Positions 10,025 through 37,211 of a stretch of 59,853 nucleotides of DNA are shown piece after piece. The DNA comes from a bacterium (lineage in GTDB: Bacteria; Myxococcota_A; UBA9160; UBA6930): positions 1 to 59,853 of the forward strand of contig JAAELW010000430.1 of the NCBI GenBank assembly GCA_024226235.1, given 5' to 3'. Position numbers and translations under genes: made by a program. The notes under the pieces were generated by a model. It ran no database searches. It worked only from the letters and a program-made list of their open reading frames with translations, and was not told the DNA's origin. Within the stretch, counting starts at the first letter, position 1. Each line of letters opens with the position of its first letter.

Positions 10025-10648
10025 CTACGACCGCCGTCCAGCGAGGAGCAGGCCGAAGAGGCCCGAACCCAGCAGCAGCATCGTGCCCGGCTCGGGCACG
10101 TAGGTGTAGGTGCTCCGAACCTGGCCACCATTGGCGTCCCACGCCTCGACGATCGTGATGGTGTTGGTGGCGATGTTGATCGTGGCACTCGGTGCTCCAA
10201 GGGTCGTCCCGGAGGCACCGGTCGGGGGCCAAGGGGCGGTGGCCGCCGGGAAGGCGGCGCAAACCAGGCCACCGAGCCCGCCACCGAGATCGGTGCACGT
10301 CGTGTTGCCGGTGGCGGCCGTACCGGTGAGCGCTCCACCGACACCACCCGCGAACGTGCCGGTCTGGCTCCAGCCCGTGGTGTCGAGCTGGGCGTCATCT
10401 CCCGGAAGAGCCACGATATCGAGCACGATCGAGAAGTCCGGCAGGCTGAGGCTGTAGGTGCCCGCCGCCTCGTCGATGTCACCCGAACCGTTGAACGGAA
10501 GAGACGGTGTGAACGCCTGGGTGCTCGGGAAGCCCGCATCGAACGTTTCGATGCTCAAGTACGTGAGCGTGATGGGGGCCGCCGAGGCTACTCCGGCCCA
10601 CAACAGGACCAAGGCACCAACGAGAACCGGCCTAGCTATTCTCAACAT
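10025..10648 (-). CDS. PEP-CTERM sorting-domain exoprotein 1
   Basis: A 207-residue secreted protein: signal peptide MLRIARPVLVGALVLLWAGVASA, a body rich in Gly, Thr, Ser and Asp with one predicted disulfide-capable pair (TTCTDLGGG and GLVCAAF), and a C-terminal sorting tail VPEPGTMLLLGSGLFGLLLAGRRS-like (motif VPEPGT, hydrophobic span, RR). The tail is the exosortase/EpsH target for export to the cell surface or extracellular matrix. It is a close paralogue of the protein at 12132-12758. The exosortase itself is not in this window. A sigma-54-like promoter lies about 77-90 bases upstream of the start. Confidence 0.9.
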   Translation of the reverse strand: MLRIARPVLVGALVLLWAGVASAAPITLTYLSIETFDAGFPSTQAFTPSLPFNGSGDIDEAAGTYSLSLPDFSIVLDIVALPGDDAQLDTTGWSQTGTFAGGVGGALTGTAATGNTTCTDLGGGLGGLVCAAFPAATAPWPPTGASGTTLGAPSATINIATNTITIVEAWDANGGQVRSTYTYVPEPGTMLLLGSGLFGLLLAGRRS

Positions 10649-12131: not shown

Positions 12132-12758
12132 CTACGCGCGCCGTCCGGCGAGGAGCAGGCCGAAGAGGCCCGAGCCCAGCAGCAGCATCGTGCCCGGCTC
12201 GGGCACGAAGGCGTAGGTGTAGGTGCTCTGAACCTGGCCACCGTTCGAGTCAAACGCCTCGGTGATCGTGATGGTGTTGGTGGCGATGTTGATCGTGGCA
12301 CCGGGAGCGCCAAGCGTCGCTCCAGAAGCGCCGGTCGGCGGCCAGTTCGAGACGGCTGCCGGGAAGTCGGCGCAGACCAGGCCACCGAGTCCGCCACCGA
12401 GATCGGTGCACGTCGTGTTGCCGGTGGAGGCCGACGAGGTCAGAGCGCCGCCCGCGCCGCCTGCGAACGTACCGGTCTGGCTCCAGCCCGTGGTGTCGAG
12501 CCGGGCGTCGTCCCCCGCCACGGCGAGGATGTCGAGGACGATCGAGAAGTCCGGCAGGCTGAGGCTGTAGGTACCCGCAGCCTCGTCGATGTCACCCGAA
12601 CCGTCGAACGGAAGAGACGGATCGAAGGTCTGCGAGCTCGGGAAGTCCGCATCGTATGTCGCGATGCTCGCATACGTGAGGGTGATGGAAGCGGCTGATG
12701 CGCTTCCTGCGAGCAACAACAATGCGCTGACCAGGGCCAGCATTCGGGCGAGTCTCAT
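12132..12758 (-). CDS. PEP-CTERM sorting-domain exoprotein 2
   Basis: A 208-residue paralogue of the protein at 10025-10648, colinear over the full length with well over half of the residues identical: same FDGSGDIDEAAGTYSLSLPD element, same two Cys, and the same VPEPGTMLLLGSGLFG tail ending in RRA. The signal peptide is MRLARMLALVSALLLLAGSASA. The mature N-terminus repeats the ITLTYxSIxTxDAxFPS pattern. Its upstream DNA is largely unlike that of copy 1 and lacks the sigma-54-like site, apart from TTCGAGCCGATTT at 12818-12830. Confidence 0.9.
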   Translation of the reverse strand: MRLARMLALVSALLLLAGSASAASITLTYASIATYDADFPSSQTFDPSLPFDGSGDIDEAAGTYSLSLPDFSIVLDILAVAGDDARLDTTGWSQTGTFAGGAGGALTSSASTGNTTCTDLGGGLGGLVCADFPAAVSNWPPTGASGATLGAPGATINIATNTITITEAFDSNGGQVQSTYTYAFVPEPGTMLLLGSGLFGLLLAGRRA

Positions 12759-12967: not shown

Positions 12968-13942
12968 TCAGCCGGAGAAGATCGTGGTCTTGCTCAAGCG
13001 TTGGAGTGCTACCAGATGCACGCTCGTGCCGATCGCGAGCATGTTCGGAGCCGGATGGATTCCCTTCGCGTAGAGCCGGAGGGCCGTGCAGTCGATGCAG
13101 ACCGCTTTGAAGAAGTTGAGGGCCTGCCAGTAGCGCAGCCTCTCCGGGTCGAGCCTCACGCCGACGGCAGCTTCGATGTAGGCCACCCATTCGTCATCGG
13201 TCATCACGCCCATGCCGCGCATGCTGATCAGATAGGCCCAGTCTTCGTCGGGATCACCGATGTGAACGAACTCCCAATCGACGACGGCCGTGACGCGCCC
13301 GTCGAGGTGCAGGAAATTCCCGATCCCCGGGTCGCCGTGGATGATGCTGATGCGCTCCGACTCGGGCGCATGGTTGCGAAGCCATTGCGCCGCCTCTTCG
13401 ACCAGCGGGGAGGGCTCGCCGACCAACGCTGACCGGTAGACCTCGTACCAGTGCTCTACCTGCAACAGAGCGGCGTCGCGGGGGCCGTTCGGATGTGGCA
13501 GTGAGCCGAGTCCCGCCTCCTTCGGGTCCATGCGGTGCAGCCGGTCGAGGAGCCCCACGTAATCCCTGAGGCTTTCGGGCGTGTATTCGCTCGTGCCTTC
13601 GACGAAATCCATCACGAAGAAGGGCTGGGAGAGCAGGTCGGTTCCGCGCTCGTAGGCCAGCACGCGGGCCACCGGGTAACCCGCCGCGTGGAGCGCCTGC
13701 ATCGCCTGCACTTCGTTGGCGCTGTCGCTGCCGAGCAGGCCCCACTGCTCGACGCGAACGATCACGGTTCGTCGGTCGGAGGCGTCCCCTGCGGTGTCGG
13801 CCGGTACGAGTTCGGCCCGGTACATCGCACGCGATTGCCCGAGCGCCATTCGCTCCAGGTGGGCAATGCGTTGGGGCGTCTTCAGTCCGAGAGCCGCCGT
13901 CAGGTAGGGTTCCAACGCGTCGCGCTGGTCCGGGCTGATCAC
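12968..13942 (-). CDS. APH-fold phosphotransferase, copy 1 (candidate small-molecule/acyl kinase)
   Basis: A 324-residue kinase-like protein. The catalytic loop is HGDPGIGN (202-209) and the metal-binding Asp is in VVDWEF (D222), both intact, so it should be active. The start is a GTG at 13942 that overlaps the stop of the partner gene by four bases (GTGA), a sign of translational coupling. It is the downstream member of a pair repeated at 22034-23418 and, in reverse order, at 33627-35078. Although the fold is that of aminoglycoside kinases, catabolic context points to kinases like LvaA, which phosphorylates 4-hydroxyvaleryl-CoA, or the kinase domain of ACAD10/11. Substrate here is unknown. 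Confidence 0.82.
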   Translation of the reverse strand: MISPDQRDALEPYLTAALGLKTPQRIAHLERMALGQSRAMYRAELVPADTAGDASDRRTVIVRVEQWGLLGSDSANEVQAMQALHAAGYPVARVLAYERGTDLLSQPFFVMDFVEGTSEYTPESLRDYVGLLDRLHRMDPKEAGLGSLPHPNGPRDAALLQVEHWYEVYRSALVGEPSPLVEEAAQWLRNHAPESERISIIHGDPGIGNFLHLDGRVTAVVDWEFVHIGDPDEDWAYLISMRGMGVMTDDEWVAYIEAAVGVRLDPERLRYWQALNFFKAVCIDCTALRLYAKGIHPAPNMLAIGTSVHLVALQRLSKTTIFSG

Positions 13943-14385
13943 CGTGCTTCCTGCATGTTCGTGACGAAGGCTCTCAGCAGCGGAGAGCTCGCCGCCAGTT
14001 GGGCCTCGAGTTGTTGCTCGAGCAGAGGGTGCAGGACAGCATGCAGCTCTGCCGCGAGCGGGCTCGTGTCGTTCTGCGCCGCGACGAGAAGCTTGGAAGC
14101 CGTTTCGTAGGGTGAGGCCGCCTCGAGCGCGGCCGCGGCTTCCGCGTTCCCGGAAGCTTCGACGCGGGGGCGCAACGTATCGATCGCCTCGGCGAGTTCC
14201 TGGCGCCTCCTTGCCGGAGCCTCCGGATCGGCGAGCAACGTGATGGCGTACTCGAGCGAGGCGGCCACCAGGTTTCCGCTGTAGCGCCCCCAATCGCTGG
14301 TGAGCTCCGGCACGATCTCCGCTTCGAGCGTCGCCACGCACGAGCGGAGGATGGTCTCTACGTCGGGTGTGAAGGGCAGGGCCAA
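13939..14385 (-). CDS. Small helical partner of the kinase, copy 1 (TTG start)
   Basis: 148 residues, colinear with the 147-residue protein at 22034-22477: both begin with LP..PDVETIL.SC..TL and share PYETASKLLVAAQN-type sequence, then a helical C-terminus. The TTG at 14385 aligns with the ATG of copy 2 and has GAGGAGAGG upstream. It is all-helical with no catalytic motif, and resembles the DUF6285 type of small proteins that accompany phosphotransferases in actinobacterial ACAD clusters (moderate confidence). By analogy with LvaB, which LvaA needs for activity, it may be an obligate partner of the kinase encoded just downstream (inference). Confidence 0.7.
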   Translation of the reverse strand: MALPFTPDVETILRSCVATLEAEIVPELTSDWGRYSGNLVAASLEYAITLLADPEAPARRRQELAEAIDTLRPRVEASGNAEAAAALEAASPYETASKLLVAAQNDTSPLAAELHAVLHPLLEQQLEAQLAASSPLLRAFVTNMQEAR

Positions 14386-14423: not shown

Positions 14424-14888
14424 TCAGGAACCGGGTATGGCTCCGCGCTCTTCGGGCGTCATCGCGCGACGTGCCTCCAGGTGCTGCTTCCAATCGTCGC
14501 AGCGCCCCTGGGGCCCGTTCCAGTAATCGATCTCGAGGCAGACCTTGCCGTCGCGGAATTCGAGGCGCGACATGCCTTCTCCGCACACCCACTTGCCCTT
14601 GTTCTCGGGGCCGTTGCTGTCGTCCCGGATCTGGATGTAGGCCATCCAGGTCAGGGCCACTCCGCGCTCGTTCGCGAAATACTCCTCCGGCATCACCTTC
14701 AGCCCGCCCGCGACCGCCTGCCAGAAGGCCTGTACCTCGGCATGGCCGTGCAATGCGCCGGGGTGCCCGAGGGTGTCGCGCATGACGACGTCGTCGGTCA
14801 TGTACTGGAGGGGTGCGCTCGAGTCGGGCCCGCCCCAGCCCTCCTCGAAGAGGAGCCTCGCAAGTTCGATCTCTGCAGCTCCGGCCAT
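14424..14888 (-). CDS. SnoaL/NTF2-like protein of kinase cassette 1
   Basis: A 154-residue NTF2-fold protein. Residues AEIELARLLFEEGW, YMTDDVVMRDTLGHPGALHG and GMSRLEFRDGKVCLEIDYWNGP are typical of SnoaL-like proteins. It is clearly related to the 135-residue protein at 23415-23822, which sits next to kinase copy 2, so the NTF2-like gene appears to be a recurring member of the cassette. The start ATG at 14888 and neighbour genes on the same strand with short gaps (38-70 bases) suggest one operon from 16134 to 12968. Confidence 0.75.
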   Translation of the reverse strand: MAGAAEIELARLLFEEGWGGPDSSAPLQYMTDDVVMRDTLGHPGALHGHAEVQAFWQAVAGGLKVMPEEYFANERGVALTWMAYIQIRDDSNGPENKGKWVCGEGMSRLEFRDGKVCLEIDYWNGPQGRCDDWKQHLEARRAMTPEERGAIPGS

Positions 14889-14958: not shown

Positions 14959-16134
14959 TCAGGTGATCCCGGGGTAAGGGCCCTTGACGACGCACTCGAG
15001 CAACCCGACTCCCTGCTCCTCGGGATCGTCCAGGTTCACGAAGCGCGCAAATGTCTCGGCCCACGCTCCATTGTTCTGGACGATCTCGGCGCCCTGCAGG
15101 TCCGTGACACGCGTCGGGTGGGATACGTCCCAGACATCACCTTCGACGATCTCCTCGCCGCGGTAGACGCCGCGGCCGAGTTCGTCGTCGAAGCCTTCCC
15201 AGTAGCCTCCGCCCTGCATGTAGAGCGGTCGGCTCACGACCTCGATCCCGAAGCGATCCGCTCGGCCGCTCCTGCGGATCAGCGCCAGTTCGGCCCGTCG
15301 CAGGCGGCGCTCGCCGTCCTCGAATTCGATCGACTCGATCTCGAACTTCTTGTAGGACCACGGCCAGCGGTCCGATTCGTACGGGTACGCCACGTTGCTC
15401 TCGGCGGTCTGGAAGCGACCGTTGTTGCCATGGTGGAACCAGTAGTAGATCGAGCGCTTGGGGAAGCGCACCAACGCCCATTGGCGCAATCCGAAGTCCG
15501 GAACCGTCGCTGCCCCATCGATGCTCTTTCCGCCAGGCGGCGGAGCCGCGTGCGGATTGGTCCGTTTGCCGCCACCCGTGTCGCCCAGGCCCCAGGAGTG
15601 ATCGCGGGCGCCGACCCAGCTCGGGTCCACATCGAACGTTCGATCCTGCACCCGGATCTGGCCACTGACATGGCCGAGTTGGACGAAGTTGGAGCGCTGA
15701 AAGACCACGCGCCCGTCCATCACGCCGGTTCGGCCGGGGATCTCGTCGAACGCCGGTGCGGCGCCCTCCCAGAGCAGGTCGAACTCGATGCCGTAGGGGT
15801 TCTCGTTGCAGCCGAACTTGATGGTGCGCAGCCCCTTGACGATCTCGAGCCAGAGCGGGCCCACGCTGATATCGTCGATGCGCGGGCGCAGACGCCGGCT
15901 GGTGCGCAGGTTGTACTGCCTGCCGTCGTCGAGGCTCAAGCAGGCATAGCCATCGGCCACGTTCGTGTTGGGATAGAAGCGGATGGCGGTGATGAGGTTG
16001 CAGCGGCCCTCAGGGTCGCCGATGCAGAACCAGAACCCATCGCTCCAGTAGGGGCTAGCGGTCGCCACCTGATCGAACGTGTCGATAGTCGGATGCCGGG
16101 GCCACTCGTCCAGCTCCGTGAGCGTTCGTACCAA
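14959..16134 (-). CDS. Lipocalin-like protein with RDHSWG motif (CrtC/AttH-like), large form
   Basis: A 391-residue soluble protein without signal peptide. The motif GARDHSWGLGD near residue 190 recalls the RDHSWG signature of the AttH / carotenoid 1,2-hydratase / hydroxyneurosporene synthase group, a double lipocalin-like barrel. Two shorter relatives at 31024-32043 and 57978-58997 carry WSHRDHTWTSRF at the equivalent place. Family members with known function act on hydrophobic terpenoids or bind them; no reaction can be assigned. It is the first gene of the minus-strand kinase cassette 1, 37 bases behind a sigma-70-like promoter. Confidence 0.6.
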   Translation of the reverse strand: MVRTLTELDEWPRHPTIDTFDQVATASPYWSDGFWFCIGDPEGRCNLITAIRFYPNTNVADGYACLSLDDGRQYNLRTSRRLRPRIDDISVGPLWLEIVKGLRTIKFGCNENPYGIEFDLLWEGAAPAFDEIPGRTGVMDGRVVFQRSNFVQLGHVSGQIRVQDRTFDVDPSWVGARDHSWGLGDTGGGKRTNPHAAPPPGGKSIDGAATVPDFGLRQWALVRFPKRSIYYWFHHGNNGRFQTAESNVAYPYESDRWPWSYKKFEIESIEFEDGERRLRRAELALIRRSGRADRFGIEVVSRPLYMQGGGYWEGFDDELGRGVYRGEEIVEGDVWDVSHPTRVTDLQGAEIVQNNGAWAETFARFVNLDDPEEQGVGLLECVVKGPYPGIT

Positions 16135-16393: not shown

Positions 16394-17230
16394 GTGGGTT
16401 TGCTTGAAGGAAAGAAGGCGGTCGTCCTGGGAGCGTCGAGCGGTATCGGCTGGCGTATCGCCGAGCGCTTCGCCGAAGAGGGCGCCGATCTGATCGTGGC
16501 GGCGCGGCGCGAAGACAGGCTGGAGAAGCTCGTCGAACAGACAGGGGGCTTGGCGATTCGTTGCGATGTGAGCGACGACAACCAGGTGAGGGCCCTTGCT
16601 GACGCCGCTCTCGAACGCTGGGGCGGCATCGATATTGCCGTCAACTCGGCCGGCCTCAACGGACCGGGATACATCCGTGACCTCGAACCGGAGTATCTGC
16701 AACAGATCGCGTCCGTGCTGTTCTTTGGCTTCTACTACTTCATGCGCCATATGGGAAACGCGATGGCAGAGACGGGTGGTGGCTCGTTGATCAACGTCAC
16801 CTCGGCCACGGCCATCATGGTGCCCGAGGGCAATGCTGCCTATTCGGGCTGCAAGGCAGGCATCAACTTCGTGACCAAGATGGCTGCTGCCGAATACGGC
16901 GCTGATCAGGTTCGTGTGAACGCGATGGCACCTTCTTTCGTTCCAACAGCGATGAACGCGTTCGGGGGCATGACGCCTTCCGATGAGACCCACGTCACGT
17001 ACGACGAGGAGCTCCCCATCGTGAAGGGCTTTCTGGACGAGACGCCTCTGGCCCGCATCATCACTGTGGACGAGTGCGCGGATGTGGCGGTGTTCCTGGG
17101 GAGCGATCTTTCGTCTTCGATCACGGGCCACTTGATCCCGGTGGATGGCGGAAACAACCTCCGCCGGCTGCCGAGCTGGGGGCCGCCCAGGCGTCGAAAG
17201 GAACCGTCCGCCCCGTCCGGGACGGACTGA
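16394..17230 (+). CDS. SDR oxidoreductase A
   Basis: A 278-residue classical SDR. Cofactor motif GASSGIG at 13-19, NSAG at 84-87, catalytic Ser137, Tyr150 and Lys154 (YSGCK). The Arg pair after strand 2 (AARRE) favours NADP(H). The start is GTG at 16394 with AGGAGG seven bases upstream. It opens a plus-strand run of three SDRs, an unknown gene, two ACADs and the kinase pair, and is 19 bases upstream of the next SDR. Substrate unknown; hydroxysteroid or hydroxyacyl-CoA dehydrogenation would suit the context. Confidence 0.85.
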   Translation: MGLLEGKKAVVLGASSGIGWRIAERFAEEGADLIVAARREDRLEKLVEQTGGLAIRCDVSDDNQVRALADAALERWGGIDIAVNSAGLNGPGYIRDLEPEYLQQIASVLFFGFYYFMRHMGNAMAETGGGSLINVTSATAIMVPEGNAAYSGCKAGINFVTKMAAAEYGADQVRVNAMAPSFVPTAMNAFGGMTPSDETHVTYDEELPIVKGFLDETPLARIITVDECADVAVFLGSDLSSSITGHLIPVDGGNNLRRLPSWGPPRRRKEPSAPSGTD

Positions 17231-19181: not shown

Positions 19182-19712
19182 ATGAAGATGGCTGACGACA
19201 TGCCGGAAAACGGAGTTGGAAACGCTGACGACGTGAAGCGCGCGGCCAGCGCCGCGAAGCCTCGACCCATGCAGAAGAGCATCGATGCCAGCATGCGAAT
19301 GACGGGTCGGCTGCACCTCTTCTTGTGCCGGATCCCCGGACTGGGCGAGCCGCTGGCGCGGGGGATGAGCTGGAGCATGGCGATCTTCCCCTGGCTCGGG
19401 GGAATGCGAAGGACCGACTCGATTGCCAAGACCCGGCAACAGCTGATCGACTCCGGCGAGCAGATGGGATTTCCGTTTCAATTCTCGGAGGTCGAAGGCG
19501 ACCAGTTCGTCCTCGAGCTTCCCTACTGCCCCTACGGGTTCACGAACTCCGAGCATCAGCGCGCCTGTGATACCGCCATGGATATGGATCGCATCCTCCT
19601 GCGGCGCTGTGGGGCAGAGTTGACCATTGAAGAGACGATTCCCGAGGGCAAGGAGCGCTGCCGGATGTTGGTTCGTCAAGTCTCGAAGGAAGAGGGTTCC
19701 GATCCGTCATGA
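19182..19712 (+). CDS. Unknown protein with conserved-looking Cys pattern
   Basis: 176 residues. I do not recognise it with certainty. The first 30 residues are polar; residues 40-75 contain a hydrophobic patch around GMSWSMAIFPWLGG. The C-terminal third has four Cys: LPYCPYGF, QRACDTAMDMDRILLRRCG and KERCRM. The spacing CPY...C...MD recalls small proteins of the L-2-amino-thiazoline-4-carboxylate hydrolase / 4-vinyl reductase type that bind a metal or cofactor with Cys residues, but that is a weak likeness. The gene abuts SDR B and its stop overlaps the ACAD start by four bases (ATGA), so it belongs to the ACAD operon. Confidence 0.6.
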   Translation: MKMADDMPENGVGNADDVKRAASAAKPRPMQKSIDASMRMTGRLHLFLCRIPGLGEPLARGMSWSMAIFPWLGGMRRTDSIAKTRQQLIDSGEQMGFPFQFSEVEGDQFVLELPYCPYGFTNSEHQRACDTAMDMDRILLRRCGAELTIEETIPEGKERCRMLVRQVSKEEGSDPS

Positions 19713-20839
19713 ATTTCGGTTTCAGCGAGGAGCAGCAGATCTTCCGCTCCGCAGTTCGCAAGTTTCTCGATTCGAATGCCCCCCTGGAGGAAGTCCGCCG
19801 GATCATGGAGAGCCCGGACGGCTACTCGCCGACTCTCTGGGAGGAGATGGCGAGCATGGGATGGCTGGGCCTCCTGGTTCCGGAGGAACACGGCGGAGCG
19901 GATCTCGGTTGGATCGACCTGAGCATCGTGCTCGACGAATGTGGGCGTTCACTCTTTCCGTCTCCGCTGATCGCTTCGACGCTGGCGGTGCTTGCGCTCA
20001 AGGAAAATGGCAGCGAGGAGCAGCAGGCGCGTTGGCTTCCGGGTATCGCTGACGGGAGCCAACTCTTCTCGCCGGCGATCCTCGAGGCGAGCGACATCCT
20101 CGGGCCCGGCGGCGTGCAGCTCACGGGCCTCGCGGAGTCGGGAGGGATCGTCCTTCGCGGCGAGAAGTTCTTCGTTCTCGATGCGACCGTGGCGACCCAC
20201 TTCGTCGTCGCCTATCGCAGCGGGGAGGATCCCGAGGACATCGGGCTGGCCGTCGTCGATCGTGCCTCGGACGGTCTCGAGGTGGAGGATACGCCCAGCA
20301 TCGATGCCACCAAGCGTATCGGCCGGCTGGTGCTCGATGGGGTCCGCATCTCCGAGGATCGCGTGCTCGCGAGCGGATCTCGAAAGGGCTGGTCCGCGGT
20401 CGTTCGGCTGCTCGACCACGCAGCGGCCGCGGTAACGGCGGAGGCGATCGGGGCCGCCGAGGGGGGCCACGCTCTCATCGTCGGCTACGCCAAGCAGCGC
20501 ACGCAATTCGGTTCCCTGATCGGACGCTTCCAGGGTGTGAAGCACCCACTGGCCGACATGTACGTCGACATCGAGTCGTTCAAGTCGTTGCTCTACTACG
20601 CGGCCTGGTGTCTCGATGAGAGCCCCGACGAGGCCCCGCTCTACGTCTCGATGGCCAAGGCCTACGCAAGCGATGCCTTTACCCGCATCGGGATCGACGG
20701 CATCGAACTCCACGGCGCACTCGGATACACCTGGGAGTACGATGCGCAGCTCTACCTCAAGCGTTCGAAGTGGGTGAAATCCGCCTACGGTGGATCCGAC
20801 CACCACTACGACCGCGTTGCGACCCTCGGAGGCCTTTGA
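19709..20839 (+). CDS. Acyl-CoA dehydrogenase, short subunit (FadE28-like partner type)
   Basis: A 376-residue ACAD-fold protein beginning MNFGFSEEQQIFRSAVRKFL. It contains the helical N-domain, a beta domain with short inserts and the C-terminal segment ELHGALGYTWEYDAQLYLKRSKW, characteristic of the non-classical subunit in alpha2beta2 ACADs of mycobacterial steroid catabolism. The motif RTQFGSLIGRFQGVKH is the usual FAD/dimer contact. It is followed with a one-base stop/start overlap by the second ACAD gene, which supports a heteromeric enzyme. Likely role: alpha,beta-dehydrogenation of a bulky acyl-CoA such as a side chain or ring fragment (inference). Confidence 0.85.
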   Translation: MNFGFSEEQQIFRSAVRKFLDSNAPLEEVRRIMESPDGYSPTLWEEMASMGWLGLLVPEEHGGADLGWIDLSIVLDECGRSLFPSPLIASTLAVLALKENGSEEQQARWLPGIADGSQLFSPAILEASDILGPGGVQLTGLAESGGIVLRGEKFFVLDATVATHFVVAYRSGEDPEDIGLAVVDRASDGLEVEDTPSIDATKRIGRLVLDGVRISEDRVLASGSRKGWSAVVRLLDHAAAAVTAEAIGAAEGGHALIVGYAKQRTQFGSLIGRFQGVKHPLADMYVDIESFKSLLYYAAWCLDESPDEAPLYVSMAKAYASDAFTRIGIDGIELHGALGYTWEYDAQLYLKRSKWVKSAYGGSDHHYDRVATLGGL

Positions 20840-21999
20840 TGGACTTCAATCTCACGCCGGAGGAAGAGGCGTTCCGCGACGAAGTGTGCGCCTTCCTCGA
20901 CGAGAACCTGCCGCCCGAACCCGAGCGGGACGAGATGTTTCCGCTTCGTTGGAGCCAGCTCGTGCGCGAGAAGGGGTGGGTGGGTTTCAGCTGGCCGAAG
21001 GAGGTCGGCGGCGGAGGCGCAACCCTGATGGAGCAGGCGATCCTGAAGCAGGAGTTGGCAAGCCGCCGCGCGCCGCCCCTGGGTACCTGCATCATGGGGC
21101 TCGCCTGGGTGGGGCCGGCCATCATCCAGTACGGAACCCAGGAGCAGAAGGACCTCTTCATCGAGGATATTCTCGACAGCAAGTACCAGTGGTGCACGGG
21201 CTACTCCGAACCGGATATCGGCAGCGACCTCGCCGCGTTGCAATGCAAGGGCGTGCGCCGGGGCGATCACTATGTGGTGACCGGACAGAAGATCTGGACC
21301 TCTCTGGCCCAGTGGGCGAAGTGGATGATCCTGCTGGTGCGAACCGATAGCGGTGGCGAGAAGAAGCACGACGGCATCACCTGTCTGCTGGTCGAGATGG
21401 ATTCACCTGGCATCGAGGTGGCCCCCATCGCAAACATGAGCAAGCAGCCCTTCTTTGCCGAGGTCTTCTTCAACGACGTAGAGGTTCCGGTAGGCAACCG
21501 CCTGGGCGAAGAAGGGCAGGGCTGGCAGATCACGATCGGGGCCCTCGCGAACGAGCGCTCGGGCATCTCCGAGGTCTCGGGCCTGCTCTGGGAACTCGAC
21601 CTGCTGAAGAAGCTCGTCCGAGAAGTCCAGATCGGCGGTCGCCCTGCATCCGAGGACAGCCGCGTGCGTCGCCGCGTCGCCGAGTTCGAGACGAGGATCG
21701 CAGCCATGCGCTTCAACGGCATGCGCTACCTCACCAAGCAGATCCGGGGTGAACCCCTGGGCAGCGAGACCTCGGTCAACAAACTCCACACGGCCCATCT
21801 CGAAAAGTACATGGCTGAGTTCGCGATCGAGCTCGAGGGGAGCTACGGCTGCCTGGCGCCGGGCTCATCCCACGCGGTCGAGCGCGGACGCTGGCAGAAA
21901 GAGGCCCTCGGCTGGTGCACCGCTGTGATCGGCGGCGGCACTCCGAACATCCAGAAGAACATCATCGCCGAGCGGATCCTGGGTCTGCCCCACGACTAG
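20839..21999 (+). CDS. Acyl-CoA dehydrogenase, long subunit (FadE29-like partner type)
   Basis: 386 residues starting at ATG 20839, whose A is also the last base of the upstream TGA. Motifs: YSEPDIGSDLAAL and GQKIWTSLAQWAKW in the beta domain, and the C-terminal GGGTPNIQKNIIAERILGLP, which binds FAD. The Glu that serves as base in medium-chain ACAD (YEGT) is replaced here by Gly (GGGT), as in the 43122 paralogue; the base would have to come from another position or from the partner. Related to the protein at 43122-44333. Together with the upstream gene it should form an alpha2beta2 ACAD. Confidence 0.86.
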   Translation: MDFNLTPEEEAFRDEVCAFLDENLPPEPERDEMFPLRWSQLVREKGWVGFSWPKEVGGGGATLMEQAILKQELASRRAPPLGTCIMGLAWVGPAIIQYGTQEQKDLFIEDILDSKYQWCTGYSEPDIGSDLAALQCKGVRRGDHYVVTGQKIWTSLAQWAKWMILLVRTDSGGEKKHDGITCLLVEMDSPGIEVAPIANMSKQPFFAEVFFNDVEVPVGNRLGEEGQGWQITIGALANERSGISEVSGLLWELDLLKKLVREVQIGGRPASEDSRVRRRVAEFETRIAAMRFNGMRYLTKQIRGEPLGSETSVNKLHTAHLEKYMAEFAIELEGSYGCLAPGSSHAVERGRWQKEALGWCTAVIGGGTPNIQKNIIAERILGLPHD

Positions 22000-22033
22000 A
22001 AGCCGAGATGCTTGCTGGGAAGGGAGAAGAGTA

Positions 22034-22477
22034 ATGACTTTACCTGTGGCTCCCGATGTCGAGACTATCCTCGATTCGTGCATCGAGACACTCCGGGACG
22101 TGGTGGCACCTAGCGTCGAGGGGGATTGGCCGCGTTACAACGCGGAACTGATGGTGGGTTCTCTCGAGTACGTAAAACACCTCCTGCGGGAGGACATCGA
22201 TGCGAGCAGGCGCGAAGAACTCAGCCGCGCATTGGATCAGGTGAAGGAGATCGTGGCCGCCGATCCGGCGCCGGAGTGGGCGGAGGCTCTGCAGGAGGAG
22301 TCCCCCTTCGAGGCTGCTTCCAGGCTCCTGGTCGCCTGCCAGAACTCCGGAGGAGAGGTGGCGGAACGGATCCGTGCGACCCTGCATCCCGTTCTGCATG
22401 CCCAGATCGATGCGGAGATGGCGCGTACCATGGGCCTGTTCTCCGCCTTCGCGCGCAACATGGTGGGGGCGAAGTGA
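22034..22477 (+). CDS. Small helical partner of the kinase, copy 2
   Basis: 147 residues, all-helical by appearance: LPVAPDVETILDSCIETLRD, a middle helix VGSLEYVKHLLREDIDASRR and FEAASRLLVACQNSGGEV. It aligns end to end with the TTG-started gene at 13939-14385. GGGAAGGGAGAAGAGTA lies before the ATG at 22034. The TGA overlaps the GTG of the kinase by four bases. Resembles DUF6285-type proteins (moderate). In the levulinate pathway a small protein of unknown fold, LvaB, is required by the kinase LvaA; the same relationship is proposed here as inference. Confidence 0.7.
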   Translation: MTLPVAPDVETILDSCIETLRDVVAPSVEGDWPRYNAELMVGSLEYVKHLLREDIDASRREELSRALDQVKEIVAADPAPEWAEALQEESPFEAASRLLVACQNSGGEVAERIRATLHPVLHAQIDAEMARTMGLFSAFARNMVGAK

Positions 22478-23418
22478 TCTCCCAGGAACAGGTACGCGGT
22501 CTCGAAGCACATCTGAGCAGCGCGCTTGGCGAACCATGCACGCTCGGGCGGACGGACCGCATGTCGATGGGGCAATCCCGCGCGATGTACATCGCCGAAC
22601 TCGAGTGCGAGCGGTCCGGGCGCCGCAAGGTGGTGGTTCGCGTCGAGCAGTGGGGCTTGCTGGGTGGCGAGAGCCGCGACGAAGTCCGGGTCATGCGCGC
22701 ACTCCGTGGCGAGGGCCTTCCCGTTGCGGAGGTGATCTCCTACGAACCCTCCTGCGAAATCCTGGGCCAACCCTTCTTCGTGATGGAGTTCGTCGAGGGG
22801 ACGAGCGTCTTTACGCGTGAAAGCCTGGATCCGTACGTCGACTCTCTTGCGCGGCTCCATCGCCTCGAACTTTCGGCGATCGACATCGATTTCTTCGAAA
22901 TGCCCAAAGGGCCCCGTGACTCGGCACTCCTCCAGGTGGAGCGTTGGTACGACGTCTATCGCAGCGGCCTGGCCGGGGAGCCCTCACCTCTGGTCGAAGA
23001 GGCCGCCCAGTGGCTCCGAAACAATGCGCCGGAGACGGAGCAGCCGCGCCTCGTCCACGGGGATCCCGGCCCCGGCAACTACCTGCACGAAGGCGGCGAG
23101 CTGCGTGCACTCGTCGACTGGGAATTCACCCACCTGGGCGACCCGGAAGAGGACTGGGCCTATCTGATCGCGATGCGCGGAATGGGCGTGATGACCGAGG
23201 ATGCATGGGTCGCCTACCTGGCGGATCAGGTCGGCATCGAACTCGACCGGGATCGCCTCGCGTACTGGATTGCCCTCAACCTGTACAAGGGCGCATGCAT
23301 CGACCAGACCGCGCTCGGCATCTTCATCCGCCGCGAGTACCTCGCCCCCAACCTGCTGGCGATCGGCACCTGCATCCATCTCTCGGCGCTGAAGCGCCTG
23401 GCGGACACCGTCCTCTAG
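22474..23418 (+). CDS. APH-fold phosphotransferase, copy 2 (candidate acyl-CoA kinase)
   Basis: 314 residues, GTG start inside the GTGA overlap with the partner gene. Catalytic loop HGDPGPGN at 195-202 and a following LVDWEF Asp are intact. Long stretches match copy 1, for example MGQSRAMY, VRVEQWGLLG, QPFFVMEFVEGTS, PRDSALLQVERWYDVYRS and DEDWAYL-like EEDWAYLIAMRGMGVMT. Directly upstream lie an ACAD pair and the partner gene, the same set of functions as LvaA/LvaB/LvaC (kinase, partner, ACAD-like). The stop overlaps the convergent NTF2-like gene by four bases. Confidence 0.83.
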   Translation: MISQEQVRGLEAHLSSALGEPCTLGRTDRMSMGQSRAMYIAELECERSGRRKVVVRVEQWGLLGGESRDEVRVMRALRGEGLPVAEVISYEPSCEILGQPFFVMEFVEGTSVFTRESLDPYVDSLARLHRLELSAIDIDFFEMPKGPRDSALLQVERWYDVYRSGLAGEPSPLVEEAAQWLRNNAPETEQPRLVHGDPGPGNYLHEGGELRALVDWEFTHLGDPEEDWAYLIAMRGMGVMTEDAWVAYLADQVGIELDRDRLAYWIALNLYKGACIDQTALGIFIRREYLAPNLLAIGTCIHLSALKRLADTVL

Positions 23419-23822
23419 GCCAGCCCCAGCGAGCGAAGCACGTTGGGGCCGTGATGGTAGTCCACCTCCCGGCACACCTTGTCGCCTCGAAACTCGAGCG
23501 TCGACATTCCTTCCGAGCGCCAGCTCTTCCCGCTGGCTTCGGGGCCGAACATCTCTCCCGCGACGGCACTCATCACCCAGGTCAACGCCAGCCCCGATTC
23601 GTTGATCCAGAATTCCTGGGGTGCCAGGACCAGACCCTGCGACAATTTCAGCGTCTGGCCGAAGAACTCCCGGATGGCAGGCCATCCCTCTTTGGGCGTG
23701 CCCGCGACGATGTCGTAGAGCACCGCGTCCTCGGTGAGGAACTCACCCGGGGCGTCGGCGTCGCCGCTGCTCCAGGCGGCAAATAGCTTCCTGGCGATCT
23801 CGATCTCGGTATCTCCCGCCAT
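23415..23822 (-). CDS. SnoaL/NTF2-like protein of kinase cassette 2
   Basis: 135 residues related to the 154-residue protein at 14424-14888: both begin MAG..EIE.AR.LF, have FLTEDAVLYD / YMTDDVVMRD, NESGLALTW / NERGVALTW and end with DKVCREVDYHHGPN / GKVCLEIDYWNGP. It is convergent with the kinase, ends overlapping by four bases. NTF2-fold isomerase or dehydratase is the usual range of functions; repeated linkage to the kinase pair suggests it works on the same intermediate (inference). Confidence 0.78.
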   Translation of the reverse strand: MAGDTEIEIARKLFAAWSSGDADAPGEFLTEDAVLYDIVAGTPKEGWPAIREFFGQTLKLSQGLVLAPQEFWINESGLALTWVMSAVAGEMFGPEASGKSWRSEGMSTLEFRGDKVCREVDYHHGPNVLRSLGLA

Positions 23823-23864: not shown

Positions 23865-24887
23865 CTACCCGGCATCCTGCTCGGCGCGCAGGGTATCGGC
23901 GAGTTTCGCTTCGTAGTCGAAGTCGTAGCTGGCGAACCAGAGGGGATCCACGAGCGCTTCCCTCGTATCGTCGAGGCCGGACTCGATGAACCACTCGAAG
24001 GTCTGGGCGTGCCCGGTGCGGAATTCGTATTTGGGCTGGAAGCCGAGCAGGTTCCGGGCCTTCTGGGTGCTCAGGACGGCGTGATGAAAGGAGCCGAACA
24101 AGTGGCTGTAGGCGGGCTTCTCCAGCTTCCCCACGTACCGGGATGGCATGAAGACCACATCGGCCGGCTTGCCGACGATCTCGCTGAGGATCGAGACGTA
24201 TTCGTTCGCCACGATGCCTTCCGCCGTGATGTTGAAGATCTCACCGGGTGCCTTCGGGTGTGTCGCCATATCGACCATCACGCGGCAGAGGTCGTCCACG
24301 TGGCCGTAGGAGCCGGTGACCAGGCCATCGTGGGGGAGGATGATGGGCAGCCCACGCAGCAGGCGAAGGAAGTAGGCCATCTCCATGTCGTAGATGTTGT
24401 TGTTCGGGCCGTAGATCGCCGCGGGCCGCACCACCGAGGCCGGGAAGCCCGTCCGGGTTTGCCTCTCGAGCAGGATCTCCTCTGTAGCCTTCTTGAAGCC
24501 GCCATAGGTGTCCGGCCCCTCGTCGACCGCGGGGAAACTCTCGTCCCACGGGAAGATGCCGGAGGGTGCATACGCCATGATCGAACTCGTGTACACGTAG
24601 GCGCCCACCCGGCCGTCGAGCATGTCGACGAGATCCGCCATGTTGGAGCCCATGGCGGCCATGATGAAGCCCGAGACGTCGAAGACCGCATCCCAATCCT
24701 TGCCTTCGAGGGCTGCGCGCATCGATTCCTTGTCGCGCCGATCGGCAACCAGACGCTCGATGCCGGGGGGGAGCTTTGTCTCGGTCTGGCCGCGATTCAG
24801 GACGGTGACGTCATGCCCCCGTGATGCCAGTTCGTGTACGGTGTGGAGCCCGACGAACTGCGATCCCCCGAGTACGAGTGCCTTCAC
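23865..24887 (-). CDS. NAD-dependent epimerase/dehydratase-like (extended SDR)
   Basis: 340 residues. Rossmann motif GGSQFVG at 7-13, Tyr128 and Lys132 in YGGFKK with SS at 101-102 giving the extended-SDR triad; RPAAIYGPNN follows as in sugar epimerases and 3beta-hydroxysteroid dehydrogenase/isomerase relatives. The C-terminal part (FGSFHHAVLSTQKARNLLGF, GHAQTFEWF) has the KARxxLGF/P pattern of this family. In an island rich in steroid-type genes a 3beta-HSD-like role is possible, but a nucleotide-sugar epimerase role cannot be excluded. Confidence 0.78.
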   Translation of the reverse strand: MKALVLGGSQFVGLHTVHELASRGHDVTVLNRGQTETKLPPGIERLVADRRDKESMRAALEGKDWDAVFDVSGFIMAAMGSNMADLVDMLDGRVGAYVYTSSIMAYAPSGIFPWDESFPAVDEGPDTYGGFKKATEEILLERQTRTGFPASVVRPAAIYGPNNNIYDMEMAYFLRLLRGLPIILPHDGLVTGSYGHVDDLCRVMVDMATHPKAPGEIFNITAEGIVANEYVSILSEIVGKPADVVFMPSRYVGKLEKPAYSHLFGSFHHAVLSTQKARNLLGFQPKYEFRTGHAQTFEWFIESGLDDTREALVDPLWFASYDFDYEAKLADTLRAEQDAG

Positions 24888-31023: not shown

Positions 31024-32043
31024 TCAGACCATCCACTGGGGAAGCGGCGGCATGACGTCATATTCGGCCGTGCCCGTTCCGACTTCGCCCGTCTCTTCGA
31101 CCTCGAAATCACAGAAGGCCTCGTAACAGTCGAGACGGTTCTCGAGATCGTTCTCGGCACGCATCCAGAGTTTGACCGTGCCATGGTGTTTCGTGTTCTT
31201 CACGTGGATCACCTCGCCGTCCGGCATCGTGAGCTGATAGCGGAACTCCTTCGCCGTTCGCACTCCTGCGGTGCCGTCGTTGGGGGTGATCCAGCCCTTT
31301 GCATTGAGGATCGGGCGGCTTCCGTCCTTGTCGGAGACGAACCCGGCATTGGCTCGCTCCTCGATCGGCGTGTCGTTCTGGTAGTGCATGCCGAGCACGT
31401 TGATGTGGCGGTCCGGGAGCTGGATCGAGGGCCAGAAGTGCGCCGGGAAATGACCCTCCTGCACATACCAGTCGTTCCGCTCGTTGAAGCGTGAGGTCCA
31501 CGTATGGTCGCGGTGGCTCCAGCAGTTGATCTGGCGGGTCTGTCCCTTGGAGCGTCCCCCGTGGATCTCGAAGGTTCCCGTGCAGTCCATCGCCTGCTCG
31601 AAGTGGCCGCCGTAGTACTCGTCGAAGACCCGCATGGGATCGCCGGCCGGTGACGAGTTCGCGTAGTTGAAAGGCGCGAAGCGGCCCTTGAAATCGAGAT
31701 CGAAGGAGAAATTGTCCCAATCGAGCGAGATGCGGATGTGGTTGTACGGATCGACGACTTCGTACTTCATGCGACCGTCATCCCAGGGTCCGTTCTCCGT
31801 CTCGAGGGGAAGGGGGAATTTGTTCCCGTACTGCTGCAGCACACCATCGATGAGGTAGAGCGCCTCGTAGCGGGCGAACCCCTTGTTGGTGAGATGGAAG
31901 TGGTTGATGCCGTGGATGTTGGCTTCTGGGTCGACGACGCTCACCCAGAGGCTGTCGCCGAAGAGGACGTTGCTGGGTGCATCGGGTCGTGCATGGCGGA
32001 ACTCATCCTCGGCGGTGAGGCCTTTGGGGGGGGCAAATGACAT
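31024..32043 (-). CDS. RDHTW-motif lipocalin-like protein, copy 2
   Basis: 339 residues, no signal peptide. It is colinear with the protein at 57978-58997 over the full length, with very similar blocks (VLFGDSLWVSVVDPEANIHG, NHFHLTNKGFARYEALY, CWSHRDHTWTSRF, HINVLGMHYQN, HVKNTKHHGTVKLWMRAEND). The RDHTW block corresponds to RDHSWG in the 14959-16134 protein and in CrtC/AttH proteins. Family function is unknown; binding or hydration of a hydrophobic ligand is a reasonable guess. An eight-C homopolymer occupies codons 4-6 (32026-32033). Confidence 0.7.
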   Translation of the reverse strand: MSFAPPKGLTAEDEFRHARPDAPSNVLFGDSLWVSVVDPEANIHGINHFHLTNKGFARYEALYLIDGVLQQYGNKFPLPLETENGPWDDGRMKYEVVDPYNHIRISLDWDNFSFDLDFKGRFAPFNYANSSPAGDPMRVFDEYYGGHFEQAMDCTGTFEIHGGRSKGQTRQINCWSHRDHTWTSRFNERNDWYVQEGHFPAHFWPSIQLPDRHINVLGMHYQNDTPIEERANAGFVSDKDGSRPILNAKGWITPNDGTAGVRTAKEFRYQLTMPDGEVIHVKNTKHHGTVKLWMRAENDLENRLDCYEAFCDFEVEETGEVGTGTAEYDVMPPLPQWMV

Positions 32044-32106
32044 GGAACTCTCCTCTTCGGGTCGATGGTTTCGGATTTCTGGATGGTGTGGACAGTGCGG
32101 GCCGTA

Positions 32107-32973
32107 TCAGTGGTGCTCGTCTTCCGACGGTAGGCGATCCTTCTCCGGATTGTCCTCGCGCCAATGATCGGCCCACGCGAAGCTTTGTTGCATGCGTTCG
32201 TAGCGGGCATCTACGAGCTCCCGCGTATCTGCGTGTGTGAAGATGAAGGGCTGGTCGTCGATCACCGCCTGGCGGACCATTCTCCCCACGCGCTCGGGAG
32301 CCAGGCCGCTGGCTACGAAGGCTGTGATCGCCTCGTTGTCCGCTCCCATCGGGCCGCCGAACTCGGCCTGCCGGTTGCGGTCCGCACGCGCGATCCCCGT
32401 GTCGACAGCGCTTGGGCAGAGTACCGAGCAACTGATGCCGTGGGCTGCTCCCTCCACGCGGAGAGTTTCGGAGAGCCCGACGACGGCGTGCTTGCTGGCC
32501 GCGTAGGGCCCCACGAACACACCAGGAGAGATGCCCGCGATCGAAGCCGTGTTCACGACGTGCTTCTCGCCGGGGAGTTCTCGCATGCGAGGCAGGAATG
32601 CCTGCAGGCCATGCACGACGCCTTGCAGGTTGACGGCCAGAACCCAATCCCAGTCGCGATCCGGAATGCCGTCGCACATCATGCCGAAAGTCGTCACGCC
32701 GGCGTTGTTGCAGAGGAGGTGAGCGCCGCCCAGTTCGCTCCATACCTTTTCTGCGAGGGCTTCGACTTCGTTCCGTCTCGCGAGATCGACTCGGAAGGGC
32801 AGGCACCGCCGCCCCAGCCCTTCGACTTCCTCGGTCACTGCGCGAAGGCCGGGCTCGTCGATGTCGACGATCGCCAGTTCCATGCCGGCCTCTGCGAAGG
32901 CGAGAGCCATCCCGCGACCAATCCCACTTGCACCGCCTGTCACGACGGCCACGCGCCCCTCGAGGTCCCTCAC
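32107..32973 (-). CDS. SDR oxidoreductase E
   Basis: 288 residues: TGGASGIG at 12-19, CNNAG at 88-92, Ser144, Tyr157 and Lys161 (YAASK), IVDIDE (NAD-type Asp). The region after the active site (LCPSAVDTGIARADRNRQAEFG and FIFTHADTRELVDARYERM) parallels SDR B at 18378-19181 and differs from the short SDRs, with a C-terminal extension of about 35 residues. Adjacent to the RDHTW protein (63 bases) and to the VOC gene. Confidence 0.84.
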   Translation of the reverse strand: MRDLEGRVAVVTGGASGIGRGMALAFAEAGMELAIVDIDEPGLRAVTEEVEGLGRRCLPFRVDLARRNEVEALAEKVWSELGGAHLLCNNAGVTTFGMMCDGIPDRDWDWVLAVNLQGVVHGLQAFLPRMRELPGEKHVVNTASIAGISPGVFVGPYAASKHAVVGLSETLRVEGAAHGISCSVLCPSAVDTGIARADRNRQAEFGGPMGADNEAITAFVASGLAPERVGRMVRQAVIDDQPFIFTHADTRELVDARYERMQQSFAWADHWREDNPEKDRLPSEDEHH

Positions 32974-33021
32974 GCTGTCTCCTCGTCTCTTCTACTCACG
33001 AAAAAAGGCCCCGCTGCAAGT

Positions 33022-33537
33022 TCATTCGGCCATGGCCGTAGCACTTTGCTGCTTGAGCTGCTCCATGAAGTTCCGTGTAGCCTCATCGAAACCGAGAATT
33101 TCGATCACCGACGCTTCGGCGGAATCGCAATCAAAATAGGCGAATTGGTTGCCGGGCCCGATCGCTCCAGCTGTGAATGGTTCGAGGCCGGTCTCACGGA
33201 ATGCGGCGAGGGTTGCGCCGAAGTCGGGTACGTCGAATGCCAAATGGTGAAGGCCGGGTCCAGCGCTCTCGAGGAATTCGGAATAGGGGCTCTCGCCCCG
33301 GATGGGTTCGATCAACTCGATCTGCGTCTCACGCAGGTAGCCGATGGAGATGTGGGCGGCGTAGTCAGCCGGCTGGCCACGGAAACTGCAACCCGCGTCA
33401 AAACTGACGTTTTCCATGCGGGTCCAGGCCGGCACGCCCAGAACCTTCTGGAACCAGGCTTCGGAGGCTGCGACGTCGCGCACGACAAAACCGGTCTGGA
33501 CGAAGTGCTGTGCGATCGCATCCAGGTTTGCGCTCAT
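33022..33537 (-). CDS. VOC (glyoxalase/dioxygenase fold) protein
   Basis: 171 residues from ATG 33537 with GGGAAAG upstream. Two beta-alpha-beta-beta-beta modules are visible: HFVQTGFVVRDVAASEAWFQKVLG with QIELIEPI, and GLHHLAFDVPDFGATLAAF with FAYFDCDSAEASVIEILGF. The His of HHLAF, the Glu of QIELIEP and the terminal Glu of VIEIL are in metal-ligand positions. It resembles methylmalonyl-CoA epimerase/lactoylglutathione lyase-like VOC proteins. Reaction unknown; an epimerase or isomerase on an acyl-CoA would fit. Confidence 0.8.
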   Translation of the reverse strand: MSANLDAIAQHFVQTGFVVRDVAASEAWFQKVLGVPAWTRMENVSFDAGCSFRGQPADYAAHISIGYLRETQIELIEPIRGESPYSEFLESAGPGLHHLAFDVPDFGATLAAFRETGLEPFTAGAIGPGNQFAYFDCDSAEASVIEILGFDEATRNFMEQLKQQSATAMAE

Positions 33538-33626
33538 CAATTCTTTCCCGGCAGCGGAAGAGTGGGCCAGGAGCGAGAGGGAATGATGGATTTCAATGGG
33601 TGGGCCTCGCCGGTGCAATGGGAAGA

Positions 33627-34079
33627 TCAGGTGAGCGACTCGATGGCCTCGGGGCACATCCAGACGTTGTCCTCGCCCATCGTTCGCAGCGCCTCAGCCT
33701 GGAGGAGCGCGAGCAGCTGATCTGCTGGGGGTGCCTGGCATCCGGAGCAGAGTTCCCACAGTGCCTCGCCGAGTTGCCTCGAGCGATCGCGGGGAGCGTT
33801 GCCCTCGGGCCGCACTTCCAGGGCTGCATCCAGCTTTGTGGCGAAGTCGGGTGACTCGGAGCGGATCGAGTTGGCCAGGTCGCGAACCCCGGCTTCGATG
33901 ATGCCATTCGAACGTTCCGCCGGGTCTCCGATCTCCAGGCGGTTGCTCACCTCGGCCAGCGCTTTCAATGCCGACAGGATCTGCACGCGTGCGAAGTCGT
34001 CGCTGAGCGCCGGGAGCACATGGGTTTCGAGGGAGCGCTTCACGGAGTCAAGGATCTGGGCCGAGTCGAGCACGATCAT
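33627..34079 (-). CDS. Small helical partner of the kinase, copy 3 (divergent)
   Basis: 150 residues starting MIVLDSAQILDSVKRSLETHV. The N-terminal helix pair (ILDSVKRSLETHVLPALSDDFARVQILSALKALAEVSNRLEIGD region, residues 9-52) has the spacing seen in the other two partners and in DUF6285-like proteins, but the C-terminal half differs. It follows the kinase gene (three-base gap) instead of preceding it. Probably the partner of kinase 3 (inference). Confidence 0.62.
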   Translation of the reverse strand: MIVLDSAQILDSVKRSLETHVLPALSDDFARVQILSALKALAEVSNRLEIGDPAERSNGIIEAGVRDLANSIRSESPDFATKLDAALEVRPEGNAPRDRSRQLGEALWELCSGCQAPPADQLLALLQAEALRTMGEDNVWMCPEAIESLT

Positions 34080-34082
34080 TGA

Positions 34083-35078
34083 TCAAGCCTCCAAGAGTGC
34101 TTCGAGTTGTGCCTCCAGCGATCCCATGATCGCCTGACCGGCAGCGGCAATGCGTGCGACGGAGAGCAGGCGCAGATCGTCACCGCCCTGGGCGAGATCG
34201 TAGGCGCCGGCCAGGCCGATGATCGTGCCTTTGACCATTTCGAGCAGGCGATAGTAGAGCAAGCGGCGTTCGTCGATCTCGATTCCGGTGCGCTCGGCGT
34301 ACCGGGCTGCCAGTTCCCCTTCGATCGAGCAGAGGCCCCGACCGATGGTCTGGGTGAAGGCGAGATCGCTCAAGGGATCGCCCACTCGGGCCAGTTCCCA
34401 ATCGAGCACGCCGGAGATCGTGTCTTCTTTCCACATCAGATTCGGAAGCCGATAGTCGCCGTGCAGCAGCGCCAGGCACTGGGCCGGCGGGGCGTGCTCA
34501 TCGAGGAAGTCGAGCGCGTGGCGGATGATCGGGGAAGGCAGGAGTTCCGTCTTCATCAGCCGATTCCGGCAGACGGCCACCTCCGCACGGGCGGCTTCCT
34601 CGCCTGTCGTGTAGTTCGAGAGCACGTGTTGAGGTGTCTCGTGGATCCGGGCGAGCATTTCGATGAATTGCTCTTGCATGCGGCTGAGGAGCGCCGGGTC
34701 GGCCTTGAGGCGTGCATCCATGTTCCGGTAGATGACGCCTTCCACGAAGGTCATCAGCATGAAGCGGCCACCCACGATCGATGGGTCTTCTTCGAGGTGG
34801 ACGACGCCCGGGGTCGGTAGTCCGGCCTCGTGGATTTCGCCGAGCAAGCGGTACTCCCGAGCGATGTCGTAGGGCGGGATGACCCCGTGCTCCGGCTCGA
34901 CCCGCATCACCAGGCGGGTGGGGCCGTCGGCAGTCTCGGTCTCGACGCAGTAGCTCTGGGAGGAGAGGCCGCTGGTAAGGCGTTCGATCGAGAGGACACG
35001 GTCGATACCGAGTTGGGGGGCGTTGTTCTTGAGCGCCTTCTCGAGCGGCAAGGCGAGATTGCCGGTGACTTCCGCCAC
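34083..35078 (-). CDS. APH-fold phosphotransferase, copy 3 (ACAD10/LvaA-like)
   Basis: 331 residues, GTG start at 35078, four bases after the stop of the upstream small membrane protein gene. The catalytic loop is HGDYRLPN (206-213) and GVLDWELARVGDPLSDLA follows (Asp226), the form typical of ACAD10/11-type and LvaA-type kinases and more canonical than copies 1 and 2. ERLTSGLSSQSY is the nucleotide-binding loop region. Encoded with a partner gene downstream and CrtI-like flavoproteins upstream. Predicted substrate: a hydroxylated acyl-CoA or related small molecule, not an aminoglycoside (inference). Confidence 0.84.
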   Translation of the reverse strand: MAEVTGNLALPLEKALKNNAPQLGIDRVLSIERLTSGLSSQSYCVETETADGPTRLVMRVEPEHGVIPPYDIAREYRLLGEIHEAGLPTPGVVHLEEDPSIVGGRFMLMTFVEGVIYRNMDARLKADPALLSRMQEQFIEMLARIHETPQHVLSNYTTGEEAARAEVAVCRNRLMKTELLPSPIIRHALDFLDEHAPPAQCLALLHGDYRLPNLMWKEDTISGVLDWELARVGDPLSDLAFTQTIGRGLCSIEGELAARYAERTGIEIDERRLLYYRLLEMVKGTIIGLAGAYDLAQGGDDLRLLSVARIAAAGQAIMGSLEAQLEALLEA

Positions 35079-35081
35079 GGA

Positions 35082-35549
35082 CTATGCCCGCTCGATCTCG
35101 ACGGTCGAAGGAGGGGGCGAGGCGGCCGGCGCCGCGAGGGTGGTCGTAGTGAGCCTGCGGCGGTAAAGGGCCTTCTTCCTCTTCTTCTTGAGCATCGAGG
35201 GGGGCGGAAGCTCGATCACGACTTTCTCCTCCAGCGGTTCGCTACCGAACCTGCGTTTCCAGAAGGCCCCGAAGACCCGTATGGCGACCTGGACGGCGCC
35301 CATCACCAATCCTGTGTAGAGATGCCAACGATTGGGGGAGGCGTGGATGTACTTCGCGAGGTTCGGCTCCTGGAGGATTGCGACGAAATCCACGAGGTCC
35401 GATTCGTCGATGAGCATCACGTACTCCCACGAGACGGGCTCCTCCATCGTCCCCTTCAAGCACAACGCTTCTTCGCTTACCAGCGACTCGCCCCCGCTGA
35501 GCTGCATGGCGATCGTCTTCTTCCCCAGTCCCTTCGACCAGAATTCCAT
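35082..35549 (-). CDS. Small membrane protein paired with CrtI-like oxidoreductase, copy 1
   Basis: 155 residues beginning [20 protein letters not shown]. Its ATG overlaps the TGA of the flavoprotein gene by one base. Residues 78-97 form one likely membrane or membrane-surface helix, residues 121-132 are strongly basic (KKKRKKALYRRR) and the tail is Thr/Ala/Pro-rich. It shares WSKGLGK....M.L, a GTM..P..W.Y block and E.DL.DFV..L..P..A with the 133-residue protein at 38937-39338. I know no function for this family. Placement suggests it is a subunit or anchor for the flavoproteins. Confidence 0.7.
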   Translation of the reverse strand: MEFWSKGLGKKTIAMQLSGGESLVSEEALCLKGTMEEPVSWEYVMLIDESDLVDFVAILQEPNLAKYIHASPNRWHLYTGLVMGAVQVAIRVFGAFWKRRFGSEPLEEKVVIELPPPSMLKKKRKKALYRRRLTTTTLAAPAASPPPSTVEIERA

Positions 35550-37177: not shown

Positions 37178-37211
37178 GAAGGCGCTCCGATGAAAGCCGC
37201 AGTCCCCGGCG

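Follow-up and report, generated by a model that had tools for sequence, protein, structure and literature searches.

A candidate ATP-dependent dehydration module in a steroid/terpenoid gene island of a Myxococcota_A bacterium: an LvaAB-like two-protein kinase joined with a 25-phosphosteroid-lyase-like enzyme

A four-gene run at positions 19709-23418 of contig JAAELW010000430.1 (assembly GCA_024226235.1; Myxococcota_A, UBA9160, UBA6930) encodes a pair of acyl-CoA dehydrogenases (ACADs), a small helical protein (SM1) and an APH-fold small-molecule kinase (KIN1). Analysing the whole 59,853-nucleotide stretch, hereafter the window, we found that the kinase and small protein belong with an enzyme resembling 25-phosphosteroid lyase (25-PSL), encoded 5.9 kb away, rather than with the ACADs: the lyase is their recurrent neighbour across genomes, while the ACADs flank them in only one other genome. 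Together they probably form a module for ATP-dependent dehydration, set in a steroid/terpenoid island, that newly combines an LvaAB-like two-protein kinase with a 25-PSL-like lyase. KIN1 with SM1, and their paralogues KIN2 and SM2, would use ATP to phosphorylate a hydroxyl on a steroid- or terpenoid-like intermediate, with the small protein as a subunit that supports the kinase's structure or activates it. Next, the lyase would eliminate the phosphate by means of the conserved Asp178, and the overall result of both steps would be dehydration of an alcohol to an alkene. Proteins of the SnoaL, short-chain dehydrogenase/reductase (SDR) and epimerase types encoded alongside may process this substrate too, at an earlier or a later step. 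We infer this substrate, this reaction and this role of SM1 from protein families, gene order, co-occurrence, gene fusion and conserved residues.

The lyase-like enzyme (14959-16134, minus strand) belongs to no Pfam family, and its sequence is homologous to the solved 25-PSL structures (PDB 9fzn, 9g2i and 9g4c; E 7.9e-29). Its Asp178 (codon 15601-15603, in WVGARDHSWG) aligns with Asp176 of 25-PSL. The protein is predicted to eliminate phosphate from a phosphosteroid. About 0.5 kb from it lies a second kinase/small-protein pair on the minus strand, which, like the lyase gene, the preliminary description of this DNA had overlooked: KIN2 (12968-13942), which is 59% identical to KIN1 and was placed by Pfam scan and tree, and SM2 (13939-14385, TTG start), which is 44% identical to SM1 and overlaps KIN2 at a GTGA.

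This arrangement recurs well beyond the window. The SM partner occurs in 8 of the 91 genomes of the host's class (7 with strong matches), and in these genomes the SM-kinase pair is constantly accompanied by a SnoaL_2 protein, an SDR and an unnamed protein of 391 aa that resembles the one at 14959-16134, not by ACADs. In the window, these neighbours are the SnoaL_2-fold protein at 14424-14888 (minus strand; Pfam 4e-12, and synteny) and the SDR oxidoreductase at 16394-17230 (plus strand), a gene that is usually divergent. Close orthologues of the lyase are likewise found in 8/91 class genomes, including all seven with a strong SM match; this co-occurrence has a p of about 1e-9, a figure that makes no correction for relatedness. 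In ARS66, a sister genome, an orthologue of KIN1 (82% identical) is followed immediately by the lyase. A scan of contigs returned the same neighbours in Gammaproteobacteria and Aromatoleum, as well as a variant arrangement in Actinomycetes and Gammaproteobacteria, to which an epimerase and a second SnoaL protein belong. The window holds both variant components on the minus strand, just beyond KIN1: a second SnoaL-like protein (23415-23822) and an NAD-dependent epimerase/3beta-HSD-like SDR (23865-24887; Pfam Epimerase 1.6e-21) that is 51% identical to a copy beside a fused kinase in Rhodococcus. We also observed SDR-SnoaL-small-kinase-lyase-lyase clusters in the cultivated Aromatoleum tolulyticum and A. 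toluclasticum (loci L067 and L080).

The preliminary description had read the four-gene run as a phosphorylation-based hydroxyacyl-CoA system like LvaABC of Pseudomonas putida. Its positions and strand for all four open reading frames hold. ACAD beta (19709-20839) and ACAD alpha (20839-21999), both assigned to the ACADs by Pfam, are joined by a TGATG overlap. After a gap of 34 bases follows SM1 (22034-22477; 147 aa, ATG start, no Pfam family), and KIN1 (22474-23418; 314 aa, Pfam APH E 3e-28) begins at a GTG inside the GTGA it shares with SM1; all four genes are on the plus strand. This overlap and the intact HGDPGPGN catalytic loop (23056-23079) are present as had been described. The SDR genes and the gene at 19182-19712, which lie 5' of the ACAD pair, are also tightly packed, and the packing and overlaps make it likely that the run and the genes preceding it form a single transcript. 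The 176-aa protein encoded at 19182-19712, between the SDRs and the ACAD pair, has no Pfam matches.

Further class genomes, and many loci elsewhere, keep the SM-kinase pair in this order, which indicates that the pairing of SM1 with KIN1 is more than chance. Across the clade, SM lies directly upstream of the kinase; the two are adjacent in nearly all relatives, and in Rhodococcus sp. USK13, Prauserella and Actinomycetes metagenome-assembled genomes (MAGs) they form one polypeptide. A structure model of the Prauserella fusion, from a modelling input of fused proteins and kinases only, is confident overall (pLDDT 88.7, pTM 0.88) and places a five-helix N-terminal domain before the kinase. From this adjacency and these fusions, SM1 looks like a true partner of the kinase. 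The expectation of an LvaB-like small partner was borne out in that the unit resembles LvaAB; its family membership was not, as neither a Pfam scan nor a search of the host's own genome matched PF19802 (DUF6285) in the window, and profile comparison linked the SM family to LvaB/DUF6285 only weakly (probability 16.5%). The sole DUF6285 copy in the host genome lies on another contig, with its own kinase: at L001:452-1848 (G000:C509), a true DUF6285 protein overlaps an LvaA-like kinase. A gene for a SixA-like histidine phosphatase comes before it, and the stretch fetched there showed no LvaC-type ACAD.

The kinase itself falls near ACAD11, LvaA and 25-hydroxysteroid kinase (25-HSK), away from resistance kinases. 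Against the PDB, the kinase-family profile matched 3dxp, ACAD11 (8v3v), 25-HSK (9fsg) and Rv3168 at 3e-23 to 6e-20 (ACAD11 at 3e-22 and 25-HSK at 4.5e-20), while antibiotic kinases came in at 1e-5 or worse. We therefore consider it very improbable that the kinase inactivates antibiotics or metabolites by phosphorylation and has no part in catabolism. The APH fold and weak matches to APH(3') models would suit such a role, but no antibiotic APH/Mph model scored above its family cut-off, the APH models falling far below (best for KIN1, 56 bits vs a cut-off of 205), and the gene context is catabolic throughout.

In a quick-search tree, for which SH-aLRT is the only support measure, KIN1 and KIN2 fall within one clade of 36 rows (support 99). 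This clade is separate from that of the LvaA-type kinases of LvaC/DUF6285 loci (97) and from 25-HSK, which pairs with a Gordonia kinase outside it (100). A strong lyase homologue lies within 10 kb in 25 of the 36 rows; as the rows for the L034 pair and the end of L055 represent the same gene, this amounts to 24/35 distinct genes. An LvaC-type ACAD adjoins the kinase in none of the 36. Outside the clade, 25-HSK-side kinases directly adjoin lyase homologues in Gordonia and an Actinomycetes MAG. Such recurrent linkage to kinases fits a phosphate leaving group for the lyase.

The closest precedent for the proposed chemistry is found in Sterolibacterium denitrificans, in which 25-HSK and 25-PSL dehydrate 25-hydroxysteroids (PMC8449060, PMC11061730). 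The PDB titles identify 9fsg as 25-HSK and 9fzn, 9g2i and 9g4c as 25-PSL. Using a published primer (PMC8449060), we located the 25-HSK gene of S. denitrificans, which encodes 379 aa and has the EDPWDF end that the primer dictates; 25-PSL lies 46 kb from it. Our literature search found no paper on the 25-PSL gene. Both systems combine an APH-fold kinase with a homologous lyase carrying the Asp of RD(R/H)SWG, in hosts with S25DH/S26DH-like hydroxylases, and ATP-dependent dehydration, established there, is proposed here by analogy. Unlike the window kinases, 25-HSK has no reported small partner, is encoded far from its lyase and belongs to a separate kinase clade.

What the run's ACADs do bears on the alternative that KIN1 and SM1 phosphorylate a hydroxyacyl-CoA and that the ACADs beside them, in the manner of LvaC and ACAD10/11, then remove the phosphate to yield an enoyl-CoA. 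LvaC and ACAD10/11 are distinguished by a particular catalytic Asp, and ACAD10/11 work without an external electron acceptor (PMC12440821, PMC11342911). We used plasmid searches to collect Lva-type loci of Thermus, Azospirillum and Azoarcus, in which the kinase and DUF6285 genes accompany an ACAD ending DG(P/A)SEVH, together with a Sulfitobacter locus whose ACAD has DGPDEVH. When aligned at this column (DGxxEVH), four reference loci have Asp, whereas both window ACADs have Gly. ACAD alpha, which is PimC/ChsE4-like, instead carries the helix-G Glu (LANERSG), the catalytic base in isovaleryl/long-chain and FadE26-type ACADs; ACAD beta, which is PimD/Tcur3481-like, has no catalytic base in the usual column of the alignment. 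Their best PDB matches are the steroid alpha2beta2 ACADs 4x28 (chain A, for alpha) and 6wy8 (chain A for beta, chain B for alpha), which act on steroid side chains.

The LvaC role proposed for the ACADs is not supported, and the LvaABC reading as a whole survives in the kinship of the kinase and the small-partner unit but fails in the ACADs and in the DUF6285 partner. We regard it as a minor rival only, and a rather improbable one. The overlaps and gene order do imply co-transcription, the kinase is related to the kinase domain of ACAD11, and the ACAD-ACAD-SM-kinase order is kept in one other genome (G031, locus L055) at 77-87% identity. Yet that genome is the only one in which the order recurs, the KIN1 orthologue of ARS66 adjoins the lyase instead, and the kinases of the window's clade lack LvaC-type neighbours. 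What the window shares with LvaABC and its DUF6285 relatives is a kinase whose small helical partner is encoded beside it and, presumably, a hydroxylated catabolic substrate. ACAD10 and ACAD11 differ further in having their kinase fused to an LvaC-type ACAD, whereas relatives of the window kinase are fused to the small partner. The best explanation is that the ACAD pair belongs to the same pathway and works there as an ordinary heteromeric steroid-acyl-CoA dehydrogenase, like ChsE4-ChsE5 and Tcur3483-Tcur3481 but outside the conserved kinase module, and placed by KIN1 in this lineage.

Several observations weigh against the kinase-lyase reading. KIN1 sits in the ACAD operon, at a distance from the lyase, and only KIN2 is canonically arranged; the KIN1 copy may have been taken up for another hydroxyl in this pathway. 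Homologues distantly related to the lyase occur in most of the class (82/91 genomes), the window kinases had seeded the scan that supplied the kinases sampled, and 11 of the 36 clade rows lack a lyase in the stretch fetched, several of these rows lying at contig ends. KIN1 and 25-HSK are about 32% identical over only some 190 residues, and 25-HSK is monomeric (PMC8449060). Finally, the lyase homologues next to the epimerase-type relatives have Asn in place of the key Asp.

This last point also speaks for an alternative in which the kinase phosphorylates an alcohol for another purpose, such as activation for later cyclisation or isomerisation, or salvage of isoprenoid alcohols, and the 25-PSL-like protein is a hydratase, cyclase or isomerase. 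The fold also takes in kievitone hydratase and Diels-Alderase-type cyclases, and SnoaL and CrtO-like enzymes are encoded nearby. However, the match to 25-PSL is strong in sequence and not in fold only, the window enzyme retains the Asp, and the linkage to kinases suits elimination of phosphate; we consider this alternative unlikely. The Asn-bearing homologues (FRNHSWG), which lie beside epimerase-type kinase loci (L046:7555-8655, L068, L069, L073, L076, L081 and L082), may differ in function. The product-bound 25-PSL crystal 9g4c carries this change as well: in the region shown, it differs from 9fzn by Asn for Asp in GSRDRSWG.

For a broader form of the kinase-lyase reading, we see about an even chance: that the LvaAB-like kinase, its obligate helical partner (fused in some Actinomycetes) and the 25-PSL-like lyase make up a widespread, previously undescribed three-protein ATP-dependent dehydratase for steroid/terpenoid alcohols, found in Myxococcota-type MAGs, Gammaproteobacteria, Aromatoleum and, as a variant, Actinomycetes, with several copies of differing specificity per genome. 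Phosphoester-based ATP-dependent dehydration has so far been demonstrated in a single bacterium and for a single steroid step, and there a long distance separates the kinase gene from the lyase gene. In many of the lineages described here the two stand together with the partner, and their clustering in the cultivable Aromatoleum species makes the chemistry, the role of the partner and the substrate directly testable. The analysis also supplies names for genes that Pfam leaves blank.

That the kinase phosphorylates a bulky substrate bearing a hydroxyl, in what looks like a steroid/terpenoid island, is still the best guess. The window also encodes acyl-CoA synthetases, CoA-transferases, an OYE-type reductase, CrtO-like flavoproteins, luciferase-like and F420-type proteins, and DUF1302/DUF1329 proteins. 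Molybdopterin oxidoreductases are numerous in the host genome. One of them, a type II DMSO-reductase alpha subunit on contig C64, shares 54% identity with one of the S25DH/S26DH-like relatives in S. denitrificans; eight of these are full-length, which equals the number of S25DH-like genes that the authors of work on that organism report (PMC8449060). This enzyme set and the S25DH-like host genes favour a steroid or steroid-like substrate, although they are not proof of one. On C64 (G000:C64, L045:2484-7858) the alpha, chaperone and beta genes lie about 4 kb from an APH kinase, and molybdopterin genes are found near APH kinases on C182 and C235 too. A likeness of the SnoaL, OYE and CoA-transferase genes to the bai bile-acid operon was considered and rejected, the OYE protein scoring far below the BaiCD cut-off. 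The two adjacent CrtO-like FAD oxidoreductases at 35549-38927 are also far below the CrtO cut-off.

A third, more distant pair, likewise missed before, is also on the minus strand: KIN3 (34083-35078; Pfam scan, tree) and the small protein that follows it, SM3 (33627-34079); the host genome has 21 APH-type matches in all. The minus-strand run at 31024-35078 continues with a glyoxalase-like protein, an SDR and a 25-PSL-fold protein (31024-32043, with an SHRDHTW motif), and is possibly a second kinase-lyase dehydration set. Within the open reading frame set, a hidden Markov model matched this last protein at E 4.5e-12 and a paralogue, 71% identical, at 57975-58997 (plus strand) at E 2.9e-10. The best PDB structural matches of its model (ma1edb49a2167) are to 25-PSL, with a TM of 0.7, and by sequence both proteins are classed as remote members of the 25-PSL family. 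Elsewhere in the window, at 10025-10648 and 12132-12758, two paralogous, secreted-looking proteins end in GLFGLLLAGRR, with tails resembling the PEP-CTERM type.

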